Shown here piece after piece: positions 3,811 through 7,968 of a stretch of DNA of 7,968 nt. The stretch spans positions 1 to 7,968 of the forward strand of contig JAGATI010000139.1 of NCBI GenBank assembly GCA_017621295.1, in the 5' to 3' direction. A program made the position numbers and the translations under genes. Every line of letters starts with the position of its first letter. Position 1 is the stretch's first letter. Origin of the DNA: Clostridia bacterium (lineage in GTDB: Bacteria > Bacillota_A > Clostridia > TANB77 > CAG-508). The notes beneath the pieces are model-generated. The model was not told the origin of the DNA, made no database searches, and was given only the letters and a program-made list of their open reading frames with translations.

Positions 3811-3885
3811 CTTAGCAAGCACTGAATTTGGCAGACAAAAACATTTGACTGCCTAAATTCGCATGTGGGGACACCCCAATCCCCA
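3811..3885. other. oriT: Candidate origin of transfer (oriT): GC-rich dyad island
   Basis: This stretch is close to half G+C, against roughly a quarter to a third in its surroundings, and has no open gene. It contains a long interrupted dyad, GAATTTGGCAG (3824-3834) with CTGCCTAAATTC (3849-3860), pairing except for one bulge. A second perfect short dyad follows, TGGGGACACCCCA (3866-3878), and its CCCCA arm is repeated at 3881-3885. No T-run follows either dyad, which argues against a terminator. Stacked inverted repeats in a GC-rich patch close to the MobC/relaxase genes are typical of MOBP origins of transfer. HU and DUF3789 lie between this site and mobC. The identification is inferred; the nick site cannot be named from sequence alone. 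Confidence 0.42.
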
Positions 3886-3889
3886 AATA

Positions 3890-3935
3890 ATAATTTCAAA
3901 TAAATTGAAATTATGGTATAATGAAATTGAAATTA
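3890..3935 (+). promoter_or_regulatory. Operator-like repeat cluster at the HU promoter
   Basis: ATAATTTCAA (3890-3899) and TTGAAATTAT (3905-3914) are a perfect 10-base inverted repeat with a 5-base spacer. The 12-base word AAATTGAAATTA occurs at 3902-3913 and again, identically, at 3924-3935. The two copies are 22 bp apart, about two helical turns, and flank the -10 box. Together they give three related half-sites covering the -35 region, spacer and start point. This is what an operator bound by a dimeric repressor, or an autoregulated site, would look like. Confidence 0.5.
3895..3922 (+). promoter_or_regulatory. Promoter of the HU gene
   Basis: A perfect -10 hexamer TATAAT (3917-3922) is preceded by TGG, giving an extended -10 (TGnTATAAT). 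A TTCAAA (3895-3900) 16 bases upstream can serve as a -35 with four of six consensus bases. Transcription would start near 3929, about 28 bases before the HU start codon. This is the clearest sigma-A-type promoter seen in the window. Confidence 0.72.
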
Positions 3936-4303: not shown

Positions 4304-4447
4304 ATGAGAGAATTTGTATTTTTTTTATTAGGAACTATGTTAGGTGGTTTAACTGGAATTACAATGATGTGCATGTTACAAATTAATAGATTAAAAGATA
4401 ACTCTATTGAAAAGGATAAATCATCAAACTATGAAGAAGAATGTTGA
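4304..4447 (+). CDS. DUF3789-like small membrane protein
   Basis: A 47-residue protein beginning MREFVFFLLGTMLGGLTGIT. The start ATG at 4304 follows AAGGAG (4293-4298) at good spacing. One membrane segment spans about residues 4-25, with a glycine-rich middle (GTMLGG) and MMCMLQINR after it, then a charged cytoplasmic tail. The pattern and location match the small DUF3789 proteins that I recall from Tn1549-like elements; their function is unknown. The last six codons overlap the start of mobC (ATG at 4431), so this gene may serve partly to couple translation into mobC. It is the first gene after the HU terminator and thus the head of the transfer operon. Confidence 0.78.
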   Translation: MREFVFFLLGTMLGGLTGITMMCMLQINRLKDNSIEKDKSSNYEEEC

Positions 4448-4793
4448 GGATATATTAAGAAATAGAATAACAATAAGACTTACTGATGAACAATATGGAA
4501 GATTACTAGATTATAGTAATATAACAGGACAAGATATTAATAAGTTAGTAAGAAAATTAATTGATAGAAAAGTACCCAGAGCAATGAATCCATATGATAT
4601 ACAAAAATTAATAAAGGAAGTAGATCGAATAGGAAATAATATAAATCAAATATCTAAAGTAGCAAATACTTATCATACCTTAAGTGATAATTTAACAAAT
4701 CAATTGGTAAATGATATTAACGATTTGAAACATTATGTAAGATATGAACTTCCTTATGAAAATAATATAGAAAAAGATTGGTATAAAAAATAA
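4431..4793 (+). CDS. mobC: MobC-family relaxosome accessory protein
   Basis: A 120-residue protein of the MobC type. The N-terminal part, RITIRLTDEQYGRLL followed by a helix, resembles a ribbon-helix-helix DNA-binding fold. The C-terminal part has the MobC hallmark GNNINQISKVAN (roughly residues 68-79). MobC proteins bind oriT and help the relaxase open and nick it. I chose the ATG at 4431, which lies 17 bases inside the DUF3789 gene. The nearest SD-like AAAGGA (4411-4416) is rather far, so coupled translation is likely. An in-frame TTG at 4407 would add eight residues but has no ribosome binding site. The relaxase ribosome binding site starts six bases after the stop. Confidence 0.9.
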   Translation: MKKNVEDILRNRITIRLTDEQYGRLLDYSNITGQDINKLVRKLIDRKVPRAMNPYDIQKLIKEVDRIGNNINQISKVANTYHTLSDNLTNQLVNDINDLKHYVRYELPYENNIEKDWYKK

Positions 4794-4798
4794 TTGTT

Positions 4799-4807
4799 GG
4801 AGGTGAT
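4799..4807 (+). promoter_or_regulatory. Ribosome binding site pointing to a non-canonical relaxase start
   Basis: GGAGGTGAT is a strong Shine-Dalgarno sequence. The codon at proper distance in the relaxase frame is ATT at 4811, seven bases after GGAGG. A TTG at 4812 is in another frame and stops after three codons. The site is too far from the first in-frame ATG (4892) to serve it. Confidence 0.8.
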
Positions 4808-4810
4808 AAT

Positions 4811-6139
4811 ATTGCAACAGTAGGAATATGGAAAGTAACAAGTAATTTAAAGCAAGTAATAGATTACACAGAAAATGAAGAAAAAACAAAAATGAATGAA
4901 GAATTTAAAGATGCTATGGATGAATTATTGAATTATGTAGATGATGGTACTAAAAATGAAGAACATCTTTTTATTACTGGTATAAATTGTGAACCTAAAA
5001 CAGCAATTGAAGATATGCTTATTACAAAACAACTATGGATGAAAGAAGATGGAATATTAGGATATCATGCTTATCAATCTTTCCCTAAAGATACTGTTAC
5101 ACCAGAACAAGTTCATCAAATTGGAATACAATTAGCACAGGAAATGTGGGGAGATAGATTTCAGGTTGTAGTTAGTACCCATTTAAACACAGAACATTAT
5201 CATAATCATTTTGTTTTAAATTCTGTTTCTTTTAAGGATGGGAAAAAATATTATGATAATAGAAAAACTTATGCAGAACTTAGAAGATTAAATGATTCTA
5301 TATGTTTAGAACATGGACTAGAAGTTTTAGATGAAAAACCAACAAGAAAACATATTAATTACGCAAATTATATGGACAATGGTACTGGAGAACATATTAA
5401 TTACTATACAATTGCAAAAAAAGACTTAGATAAAGCTATAGAAGAATCTACATCATATAATGATTTCTTAGAAGTAATGAAAACAATGAATTATACTGTT
5501 ACTAATAGATATGATAAATTATCTGTTAGAAGAAATGATTATAAAAAGAATATTAGAATTGAAAGGTATTTTGGAGAAGATTATACTATTGAGAATATAA
5601 AAAAGAGAATAGCAAATACAAAGCCAAGAAATCTACCATTTTTAGAAGAATACTATAAAAAGGAATATAAAGTAGAGCCATATAGCAAAAAAAAATATCA
5701 TGGAATTGTTGGTCTTTATAGATATTATTGTTATTTACTTAAAATATATCCTAATAATATTCGAAAATATAAGTTATCTCCAGCCATGAGATTAGATGTT
5801 TATAAAATGGATTCACTTTCTGAAGAACAGAAACTATTAGCTAGGGAAAATATAAATTCACAAGAAGAATTTAATAATTTAAAGTTAGATAGATTAAATA
5901 AGGTAACAGAGCTTACAAATGAAAAATCAAAGTTATGGTATCAATTAAAAAAAACAACTAATCCTGTGGAAAAAGATAATATACAAAAAAGAATAGATGA
6001 AATATCAAATGATTTAAAACCTATAAGAAAAGATTTAAAATTATTAAAAGATATTGAATATCGAAAAAATAAAATAGAAGCAAACTTGAAAGAATTTCAA
6101 GAACGAGAGGAGGTAAATCGTAATGAATCAATCAGGTGA
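4811..6139 (+). CDS. MOBP-type relaxase (Relaxase/Mobilisation nuclease), ATT start proposed
   Basis: With the proposed start the protein has 442 residues. Relaxases nick one strand at oriT, stay covalently bound through a tyrosine and pilot the DNA into the recipient. The likely catalytic tyrosine is Y19 in VIDYTENEEKT, the usual motif I setting in Tn1549-like relaxases. Motif III, HLNTEHYHNHF, supplies the metal-binding histidines (H124, H129, H131, H133). HAYQSFP upstream and the region ending RRLNDSICLEHGL fit the family. The C-terminal third is Lys/Glu-rich and probably coiled coil. The frame is open from 4787 but holds no ATG, GTG or TTG before 4892, and a start at 4892 would delete Y19. 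A strong ribosome binding site (4799-4807) supports ATT 4811. Alternatively a single lost G (TTG GCA ACA) inactivates or hides the true start. The stop overlaps pcfB by 17 bases. Confidence 0.88.
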   Translation: MATVGIWKVTSNLKQVIDYTENEEKTKMNEEFKDAMDELLNYVDDGTKNEEHLFITGINCEPKTAIEDMLITKQLWMKEDGILGYHAYQSFPKDTVTPEQVHQIGIQLAQEMWGDRFQVVVSTHLNTEHYHNHFVLNSVSFKDGKKYYDNRKTYAELRRLNDSICLEHGLEVLDEKPTRKHINYANYMDNGTGEHINYYTIAKKDLDKAIEESTSYNDFLEVMKTMNYTVTNRYDKLSVRRNDYKKNIRIERYFGEDYTIENIKKRIANTKPRNLPFLEEYYKKEYKVEPYSKKKYHGIVGLYRYYCYLLKIYPNNIRKYKLSPAMRLDVYKMDSLSEEQKLLARENINSQEEFNNLKLDRLNKVTELTNEKSKLWYQLKKTTNPVEKDNIQKRIDEISNDLKPIRKDLKLLKDIEYRKNKIEANLKEFQEREEVNRNESIR

Positions 6140-6854
6140 CGCAGCTGAACAAACAGTAAGAATGTCTTTAGAGGGAGTAGAATTTGCATTGAAAATAACA
6201 GGTAAAGCTGCTAAAGGTATAGCAGTTTTTTTATACACTTTATCGAAAGATAAAAGAAAGACTTCAGGTAAAACATCTTTAACTAATATGCTTAAGTCTG
6301 GAAAAGAATTAAAAGTATTCTCTATTAGACAAGATCAACTAAAAAAATTCTGTGATGAAGCAAAAAGATATGGTGTATTATATTATGCACTTGTGAATAA
6401 AAAAACAAAAGCTCATGATGGAGTAGTAGATATATTAGTAAAAGCCGAAGATGCAGCTAAAATAAACAGAATAGTTGAGAGATTTAATTTATCAACATAC
6501 GATAGTGCAACTATTAGAAATGATATTGCTAAGGCAAGAAAAGCAAAAGAGCATGATAAAGGATATCAAACAAAAGATAAAGATGTAAGAGTTAAAGAGG
6601 AAGATAATTTATCTCATATAAAGAAAGAAGGTAAGTCAGTAAACCCCTCTTTGGCGAAGACAGAAAAAGACCCTCTGTCAGAGCCAACTTACAAGAAAAA
6701 CAATTATTCAAAAAAGGGTTCTATTGATAAAAAGTCCGTAAAAGAAAAGTTAGATAATTATAAGAAAATAATTAAAGATAAAGATAAATCTAAACAAATC
6801 ACTCCAAAAGCTAAAACTAATAATAAAGTTTCTAAAAATAATAGAGCACGATAA
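6123..6854 (+). CDS. pcfB: PcfB-family (DUF3801) relaxase-coupling adaptor
   Basis: A 243-residue protein like PcfB of pCF10, which in that system binds the relaxase and the VirD4-type ATPase and docks the relaxosome at the secretion channel. The conserved domain spans about residues 1-145, with GKAAKGIAVFLYTL, ELKVFSIRQDQLKKFCDEAKRYGVLYYAL and a segment on the VDILVKAEDAAKINRIVERF pattern. A lysine-rich, probably disordered tail carries the short motif NPSLAKTEKDPLSEP, similar to a motif I recall in related proteins. The ATG at 6123 follows AGAGGAGGT (6106-6114) and lies inside the relaxase gene, so expression is coupled. Two internal oddities: a terminator-like hairpin near codons 28-36, and a tail block whose codon use differs from the rest of the gene. 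Confidence 0.9.
   Translation: MNQSGDAAEQTVRMSLEGVEFALKITGKAAKGIAVFLYTLSKDKRKTSGKTSLTNMLKSGKELKVFSIRQDQLKKFCDEAKRYGVLYYALVNKKTKAHDGVVDILVKAEDAAKINRIVERFNLSTYDSATIRNDIAKARKAKEHDKGYQTKDKDVRVKEEDNLSHIKKEGKSVNPSLAKTEKDPLSEPTYKKNNYSKKGSIDKKSVKEKLDNYKKIIKDKDKSKQITPKAKTNNKVSKNNRAR
6204..6232 (+). terminator. Terminator-like hairpin inside pcfB
   Basis: CTGCTA (6208-6213) pairs with TAGCAG (6220-6225) around a six-base loop, and the stem can be extended by AAAG with part of the following T-run (one G-U). Seven T follow (6226-6232). The shape fits a weak intrinsic terminator, but it lies in well-conserved coding sequence, so it could be accidental. If real it would cause polarity when pcfB is poorly translated. 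Confidence 0.3.
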
Positions 6855-6855
6855 T

Positions 6856-7047
6856 ATGAAACATGTAATAGTTATTGATTTAGATAATGAAGAAAAAGGA
6901 ATAATGATAAATGCATTAAATGAGTTTAGAAACAAATTATTAGAAATGAAAATTGATACGGAGCCAGTAGATTGCTTATTATTAAAACTTTTAGATGCAC
7001 CTGAAAAGAAAAGAATGTTCCCGAGAAAATATTTAGAGGTAAGATGA
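6856..7047 (+). CDS. Small conserved-context protein between pcfB and the coupling ATPase gene
   Basis: A 63-residue soluble protein. Its ATG is one base after the pcfB stop, and its TGA overlaps the next ATG (ATGA, 7044-7047), so it is translated within a coupled chain. It has no clear ribosome binding site of its own. The sequence looks like a strand (HVIVIDLD), a helix (ALNEFRNKLLEM), then TEPVDCLLLKLLDAPEKK and a basic end. Small proteins of this size and general pattern occur at this position in Tn1549-like elements as far as I recall; no function is known to me. By position it could assist PcfB or the coupling ATPase, but nothing in the sequence proves it. Confidence 0.75.
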   Translation: MKHVIVIDLDNEEKGIMINALNEFRNKLLEMKIDTEPVDCLLLKLLDAPEKKRMFPRKYLEVR

Positions 7048-7968
7048 TAGATAATAGAGATACACCAAAATGGGTATATGTATTAGGTGTTATTCCAACA
7101 ATATGGTTAGCATTATTAGTCGCACCAAGTGTTAATGGTGGATTAATAAAAATAATAGAGGATCTTCCACATAGAATGGAAAATCCTTTTTCTTTTGTTT
7201 TATGCCCAAATACCCCTAAGACAATAATTGTTTTTATATTAATATATATTTTGTTAATAGGTATATATTTATCAACAAAGAAAAATTATAGAAGAGGAGA
7301 AGAATATGGTTCAGCTAAATGGGGAAGAGCAAAAGAAATAGATAAAAAGTATAGACAACAACCAGATAATATGAATAAGATTTTAACCAAAGAGGTTGCA
7401 TTAGGATTAGATGGTAAATTACATAGAAGAAATTTAAATGTATTAGTTGTTGGTGGAAGTGGAGCAGGTAAAACTAGATTTTATGCTAAACCAAATATAA
7501 TGCAAGCAAATTGTTCCTATGTTGTCTTAGACCCTAAGGGTGAAATTTTAAGAGATACAGGAAATTTATTAAAAGAAAAAGGATATAAGATAAAAGTACT
7601 AGATTTAATTAATATGAATAAGAGTGATTGTTATAATCCATTTGTTTATATTCAATCAGATAACGATGTACAAAAGCTAGTTACTAATTTATTTAAAGCA
7701 ACAACACCAAAAGGTTCTCAATCACAAGATCCATTTTGGGATACTGCAGCATCGGAACTATTATTAGCATTAATGTTTTATTTATGGTATGAAGCACCAG
7801 AAGAAGAACAAAACTTTCCTATGGTTCTAGAAATGTTAAGAGCTGGAGATGTAAAAGAAGAAGAAGAAAACTACATTAGTCCATTGGACATGCTTTTTAA
7901 TGAGTTAGAAGACCAAAATCCTAATCATATAGCATTGAAATATTATAGAGATTATAGAAGTGGTTCAG
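7044..7968 (+). CDS. pcfC: VirD4/TraG-family type IV coupling ATPase, N-terminal part (3' end outside window)
   Basis: The frame is open from ATG 7044 to the window end, giving 308 residues of a protein that is normally about 600 long. Two membrane helices come first (about residues 10-30 and 59-79), with the loop between them probably outside. The cytoplasmic ATPase domain then begins: GSAKWGRAKEI is typical of the family, Walker A is GGSGAGKTR (137-145), and the conserved VVLDPKGE lies at 160-167. Walker B lies beyond the window. The DPFWDTAASELLLALMFYL segment is also characteristic. These ATPases receive the relaxase-DNA complex, here probably through PcfB, and pass it to the secretion channel. 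The AGAGGT at 7035-7040 and the ATGA overlap with the preceding gene set the start. The symbol follows the pCF10 naming; virD4 or traG would serve equally. Confidence 0.94.
   Translation, partial: MIDNRDTPKWVYVLGVIPTIWLALLVAPSVNGGLIKIIEDLPHRMENPFSFVLCPNTPKTIIVFILIYILLIGIYLSTKKNYRRGEEYGSAKWGRAKEIDKKYRQQPDNMNKILTKEVALGLDGKLHRRNLNVLVVGGSGAGKTRFYAKPNIMQANCSYVVLDPKGEILRDTGNLLKEKGYKIKVLDLINMNKSDCYNPFVYIQSDNDVQKLVTNLFKATTPKGSQSQDPFWDTAASELLLALMFYLWYEAPEEEQNFPMVLEMLRAGDVKEEEENYISPLDMLFNELEDQNPNHIALKYYRDYRSGS

Follow-up and report, generated by a model that had tools for sequence, protein, structure and literature searches.

Few bacterial genes that start outside ATG, GTG and TTG are documented, and gene prediction largely assumes these three codons (PMC5472188). 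One example is infC, which encodes IF3; its start codon is ATT in Escherichia coli and ATC in Streptomyces (PMC5472188), and ATA in Staphylococcus aureus (PMC13009471). IF3 represses weak starts, including those of infC and sigR. In Streptomyces sigR, a weak GTC start behind a strong ribosome binding site (AGGAGGTG) lowers the output of one operon partner, and this IF3-sensitive effect was measured (PMC5472188). In S. aureus, non-canonical starts come with extended Shine-Dalgarno motifs; in poor medium, reporters with such starts yielded about 10% of the output seen with ATG, and in rich medium ccpN reached up to 30% of it (PMC13009471). The ccpN gene starts at ATA and cvfC1 at ATT. The plasmid-encoded pncA gene (BBE22) of Borrelia burgdorferi starts at ATT and was mis-annotated at an inner start that removes N-terminal residues needed by the fold (PMC13398362).

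The window, by which we mean the whole 7,968-nucleotide stretch of Clostridia DNA analysed here, contains a relaxase gene with ATT behind an extended Shine-Dalgarno sequence. An ATH start (ATT, ATA or ATC) combined with an extended Shine-Dalgarno sequence is a known kind of arrangement. Its recurrence in a family of transfer genes appears to be new, and nothing relevant on a relaxase or conjugative gene with a non-canonical or ATT start or a link to IF3 was found among the matches listed in the open-access literature searched. The relaxase shares with infC an ATT, ATA or ATC codon behind strong pairing, but infC regulates itself, whereas the relaxase is without such a feedback loop and is carried on a mobile element. 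It shares with ccpN and cvfC1 a low-GC Gram-positive background, a weak start and an extended Shine-Dalgarno motif; those genes, however, are chromosomal with a conserved start, whereas the weak start of this mobile gene family comes and goes. As in pncA, an inner start would remove N-terminal residues that the fold needs, although pncA encodes a metabolic enzyme described in one species and the relaxase start recurs in a transfer gene. The parallel with sigR would lie in a weak, IF3-sensitive start that lowers one operon partner; there the effect of GTC was measured, whereas for ATT in the relaxase we infer it.

The window is part of a conjugative element, and its genes point to a low-GC, Firmicute-like host. 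Its genes encode, in order, a SpaA-like surface protein, a sortase, SSB, a DUF3991/Toprim protein, HU, a mobC/nikA-like protein, the relaxase, a DUF3801 (pcfB-like) protein and a VirD4-like protein (Table 1). The start of the mobC/nikA-like gene was our choice, and 17 bases separate its TAA from the ATT.

Table 1. Features of the relaxase region and its neighbours in the window.
Feature	Position	Strand	Evidence
In-frame TAA, closes relaxase frame upstream	4784..4786	+	Read directly
Extended Shine-Dalgarno sequence GGAGGTGAT	4799..4807	+	Duplex -16.6 kcal/mol, spacing 9
ATT, proposed relaxase start codon	4811..4813	+	Codon 1 homology across 153 distinct loci
Relaxase, 442 residues, MobA/VirD2-like nuclease domain	4811..6139	+	PF03432, E 3.8e-40; structural match
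Codons 1-27, lost with a start at ATG 4892	4811..4891	+	Strand 3-9, helix 13-20, invariant Y19
Codon of Y19, likely motif I tyrosine	4865..4867	+	Invariant in 47 rows
First in-frame ATG, poor start candidate	4892..4894	+	Duplex -2.5 kcal/mol
mobC/nikA-like gene	4431..4793	+	PF05713, PF21983; ORF
pcfB-like gene (DUF3801), ATG start, control neighbour	6123..6854	+	PF12687
VirD4-type coupling protein, extends beyond the window	7044..7967	+	PF02534; NF045973 CD1115 family, 223.9 of 250 bits

Direct reading of the window bore out the original prediction that the relaxase frame is open after the TAA at 4784-4786 and holds no ATG, GTG or TTG before 4892: none was found between this TAA and ATT 4811, and codons 1-27 contain none. 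From 4787 the frame encodes KIIVGGDN, followed by IATVGIWKVTSNLKQVIDYTENEEKTK and then the methionine of ATG 4892. The predicted positions of GGAGGTGAT and of the tyrosine codon (TAC) were likewise correct. The duplex between the Shine-Dalgarno sequence and the 16S tail combines strong pairing (-16.6 kcal/mol) with a normal spacing of 9 to ATT 4811. Just two of the 857 ATT, ATA and ATC triplets on the plus strand of the window had a duplex of -15 kcal/mol or lower at spacing 8-11, namely ATT 4811 and ATA 1823, the latter 2 bases ahead of the ATG of ssb at 1825; the pairing at ATT 4811 therefore exceeds chance. From these data, and from the homology described below, the relaxase very probably starts at ATT 4811. 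A hairpin predicted in the leader (4793-4821, -6.4 kcal/mol) was rejected as a feature, with a z of -0.99 and 37 of 200 shuffles as good.

The relaxase matched PF03432 over the entire profile (positions 1-132 of 132; 137.6 bits against a cut-off of 24.6, E 3.8e-40), and its scores for the NCBIfam equivalogs SAG1250 (59.2 against 575 bits) and TraI/MobA(P) (33.8 against 250) lay below their cut-offs. The conserved N-terminus of the family is encoded from 4811, as had been claimed, with A2, I6, W7, L13, Y19 and K25 invariant in 47 aligned homologues. Also invariant in these rows are H124, H131 and H133, so that an N-terminal tyrosine is accompanied by a histidine cluster; Y19 is the likely motif I tyrosine, catalytic in this relaxase family, and the histidines probably have their usual roles. 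The predicted structure is a relaxase fold that includes the N-terminal strand (residues 3-9), followed by a first helix (13-20) that carries Y19. It matches NES (4ht4), MobA of R1162 (2ns6) and MobM, which have the domain, fold, N-terminal tyrosine and histidines in common with the window relaxase but differ from it in start codon and are 10-14% identical to it. A PDB sequence search with alignment A1 gave no match.

Codon 1 was compared across relatives, as had been suggested. A search with the window protein by itself turned up no relative in either genome_contigs or viral_contigs, and one with protein P0013 turned up none in viral_contigs; relatives in contigs were found with alignment A1, which comprises 47 of 121 sequences. 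From the 198 ORF matches obtained in 198 loci and the window, four that began off register (elsewhere than at model column 1) and 41 duplicates were removed. Among the 153 distinct loci that remained, counting the window, codon 1 is ATG in 117, TTG in 13, ATT in 12, GTG in 6, ATA in 4 and ATC in 1, with no other codon in the set, and all but one of the 153 have GCN as codon 2. ATG is thus the majority start of the family, and the ATT/ATA class comprises 16 loci, most of them from metagenome-assembled genomes in which small errors are possible. An elongation codon would vary freely, whereas only near-cognate starts occur here, as would be expected if codon 1 is an initiation codon. The original prediction had offered either a rare ATT start or a lost base. 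The first of these has good support; no lost base has to be assumed, because ATT or ATA stands at this very codon in 15 further distinct loci, 14 of them with a Shine-Dalgarno sequence at spacing 8-11. The window lineage may have reached ATT by substitution or by indel.

In the 119 protein homologues that could be placed among the best 120 of 5116 found (P0028 was dropped), residue 1 is Met in 87 and Ile in 32. The Ile homologues carry a short extension before residue 1, such as MKGVRK, MIE, MII, MEVIK or MEEGDN, and these extensions look as if a gene caller had read through the Shine-Dalgarno sequence. The Ile residues behind extensions (32 of the 119 placed among those listed) suggest that many database relaxases have wrong N-termini.

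Several loci showed peculiarities of their own. L006 and L011 are near-copies, as are L005 and L133. L098, a distant plasmid relaxase in a Subdoligranulum variabile record, has ATC as codon 1, with an in-frame ATG lying two codons before it. The relaxase of L062 has an in-frame stop at codon 7, and the match in L021/L088 contains one in-frame TAG; these may be decaying copies. In seven relatives (L005, L006, L009, L021, L030, L032 and L039) a stretch of 7-8 T stops roughly 16-28 bases short of the relaxase start and could be a terminator separating the relaxase from the upstream gene; no such run was seen upstream of the relaxase in the window.

Shine-Dalgarno pairing differed between start classes, with median duplexes of -15.0 kcal/mol for ATT/ATA (n=16), -16.0 for GTG/TTG (n=19) and -10.7 for ATG (n=117). 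ATT/ATA loci paired more strongly than ATG loci (p = 1e-4, 16 vs 117; p = 2e-4 for loci scoring at least 510, 15 vs 72), p-values that are indicative because related loci were treated as independent. The spacing was 8-11 in 15 of the 16 ATT/ATA loci and a poor 14 in L051.

The weak starts recur across the family. A mixed tree of 199 rows was built with codon 1 left out (FastTree; several long branches) from 119 proteins and the 80 loci scoring at least 440 in an earlier set of 110 distinct loci, some protein rows repeating loci. On it, 20 changes between ATH and NTG starts were needed, and starred branches make 17 of these unavoidable. The best DNA-only tree, from a short IQ-TREE search of 103 of the 153 loci (score at least 510; L051 left out), required 8 changes of start class and is weakly supported, with 44 of 100 inner branches starred. 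Either gains or losses could account for these changes. Within the mixed tree there are clades that keep the weak start, including all 12 rows around P0013 and the three ATA loci L017, L018 and L038.

The neighbouring pcfB gene served as a control. In the earlier 110-locus set it gave 81 matches, of which 77 were placed: 66 at NTG and 11 displaced by one codon, the adjacent codon being ATG, with no ATH start in the 77. In the 16 ATT/ATA relaxase loci themselves, pcfB starts at ATG in 15 and at GTG in one (L051). The mobC gene was considered as a second control, but the first position of its profile lies inside the gene, so that codon 1 could not be placed.

We also examined infC in 13 genomes of our choosing with ATT/ATA relaxase loci. 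It was found in 11, with starts, placed by eye, of ATA in 8, ATC in 2 and ATG in 1 (G010). Duplexes computed for nine of the ten ATH cases ranged from -13.0 to -14.6 kcal/mol at spacing 10-12. As infC has such a codon in 10 of 11, these hosts most likely already start one gene at ATH codons. By sequence the relaxase leader resembles that of host infC: GGAGGTG is followed by 6-8 bases and ATA or ATC in infC, and by 5 bases and ATT in the window relaxase.

We think it likely that ATT 4811, with its extended Shine-Dalgarno sequence, is one of the recurrent weak starts of this family and keeps an IF3-sensitive relaxase scarce. On this model ATT 4811 would be read as fMet by initiator tRNA guided by GGAGGTGAT, and the initiator methionine would probably be removed, because alanine is the next residue. 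Within the relaxase family, weak ATT/ATA starts have repeatedly appeared and disappeared, while pcfB has kept standard starts. The weak start would hold relaxase synthesis well below that of the operon neighbours, and synthesis would be IF3-sensitive, as with infC, and would rise when IF3 is limiting. Scarcity would benefit the element through less needless nicking of its DNA. Low, IF3-sensitive synthesis is plausible by analogy, to which the infC comparison adds weight.

An alternative is that ATT is accidental, a recent one-base change or sequencing error in an otherwise standard relaxase. The nearest relative among the listed homologues, P0002, is 89% identical and begins with Met. This sister and five others give the window's own nine-row group 6 NTG and 3 ATH starts, and the ATT of the window may be young. 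Such mixed starts may argue against deep ATT conservation in the group, not against ATT as the start. An accident would not account for the same arrangement in the 15 other loci or for whole clades of Ile-start homologues, and here the frame is intact and the Shine-Dalgarno spacing unchanged; we consider it improbable. If translation began at ATG 4892, the relaxase would be shortened or the gene dead; in favour of this reading, ATG 4892 is the first in-frame ATG. It has almost no Shine-Dalgarno sequence, however (-2.5 kcal/mol), and would drop not only the tyrosine, as originally predicted, but also the first strand and first helix. Moreover, codons 2-26 differ mainly by synonymous changes between close ATT/ATA loci (6 synonymous and 0 non-synonymous for L006/L013, 8 and 2 for L006/L039, 5 and 3 for L017/L018); distant pairs differ mostly at non-synonymous positions, as expected under saturation. 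This start was rejected for the missing Shine-Dalgarno sequence and the cut fold, and is very improbable.

A GTG or ATG lying upstream within the Shine-Dalgarno sequence would yield a short N-terminal extension of the kind seen in database proteins of relatives, and some in-frame NTG does occur upstream in 13 of the 16 ATT/ATA loci. Between the upstream stop and the conserved N-terminus, however, the window, L017 and L030 have none, which excludes this start for the window. All 22 upstream codons in the 13 loci were computed, including 4 that lie beyond 12 codons upstream. The best duplex at spacing 8-11 was -5.6 kcal/mol, the stronger ones sitting at spacing 0-3, where the codon overlaps the Shine-Dalgarno sequence, or 14. 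In 11 loci the codon lies exactly three codons upstream; its spacing is 0 in 10 of them, so it is formed by the Shine-Dalgarno sequence itself, and in L036 it has no useful duplex (-2.7). The extensions also vary (VRK, VII, VIQ, VRN, VIC, VVC, MIK), whereas codons 2-26 are conserved. We rejected this start, missing in the window and at spacing 0 in relatives, as scarcely credible. Hardly any weight can be given, either, to a mobC-relaxase fusion by frameshifting at the A-run 4785-4790, even though the relaxase frame, open from 4787 onwards, overlaps the end of the mobC frame at 4791-4793. Such a shift would require the P-site tRNA to pair anew with TAA; in-frame stops lie between the upstream gene and codon 1 in L017 (at -2 codons), L006 and L030 (both at -6); and the upstream gene, where found, ends 17-146 bases before codon 1 in 14 of 16 ATT/ATA loci.

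In each of the 12 ATT loci, the ATT-GCN start necessarily contains a TTG shifted out of frame by one base; in the window it opens a three-codon peptide (4812-4823) ending at TAG. A selected role for this competing TTG was rejected, as the +1 frame is about as long in other loci (medians of 8 codons in ATT, 8 in TTG and 9 in ATG loci).

With an ATT start at 4811 preferred, recurrent weak relaxase starts beside standard pcfB starts suggest selection for scarce relaxase, and the family offers a natural series for start-codon control and IF3 sensitivity of conjugation. A bolder and rather doubtful extension is that the family has repeatedly taken on an infC-like leader, so that transfer is gated by the free IF3 of the host. 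DNA processing of the element would then rise as initiation fidelity falls, and the weak starts would be hidden in annotation because gene callers force an extension through the Shine-Dalgarno sequence or an inner ATG.

Elsewhere in the window, GC content is about 25% over the first 6000 bases, and the surface protein and sortase genes (PF17802, PF04203) occupy the left end, 1-1245. An Rfam scan of the window at the gathering threshold gave no match. Between an acidic ORF and HU, at 3824-3896, an inverted repeat with a one-base bulge (by eye), GAATTTGGCAG / CTGCCTAAATTC, is followed by GTGGGGACACCCC and is a possible oriT. Its exact 23-base core is absent from viral_contigs; its short pattern occurs in 2 of the 198 loci, most of whose flanks are too short to tell. 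The HU gene itself probably starts at GTG 3957 (duplex -16.2 kcal/mol) rather than at ATG 3921, the start of the longer frame.
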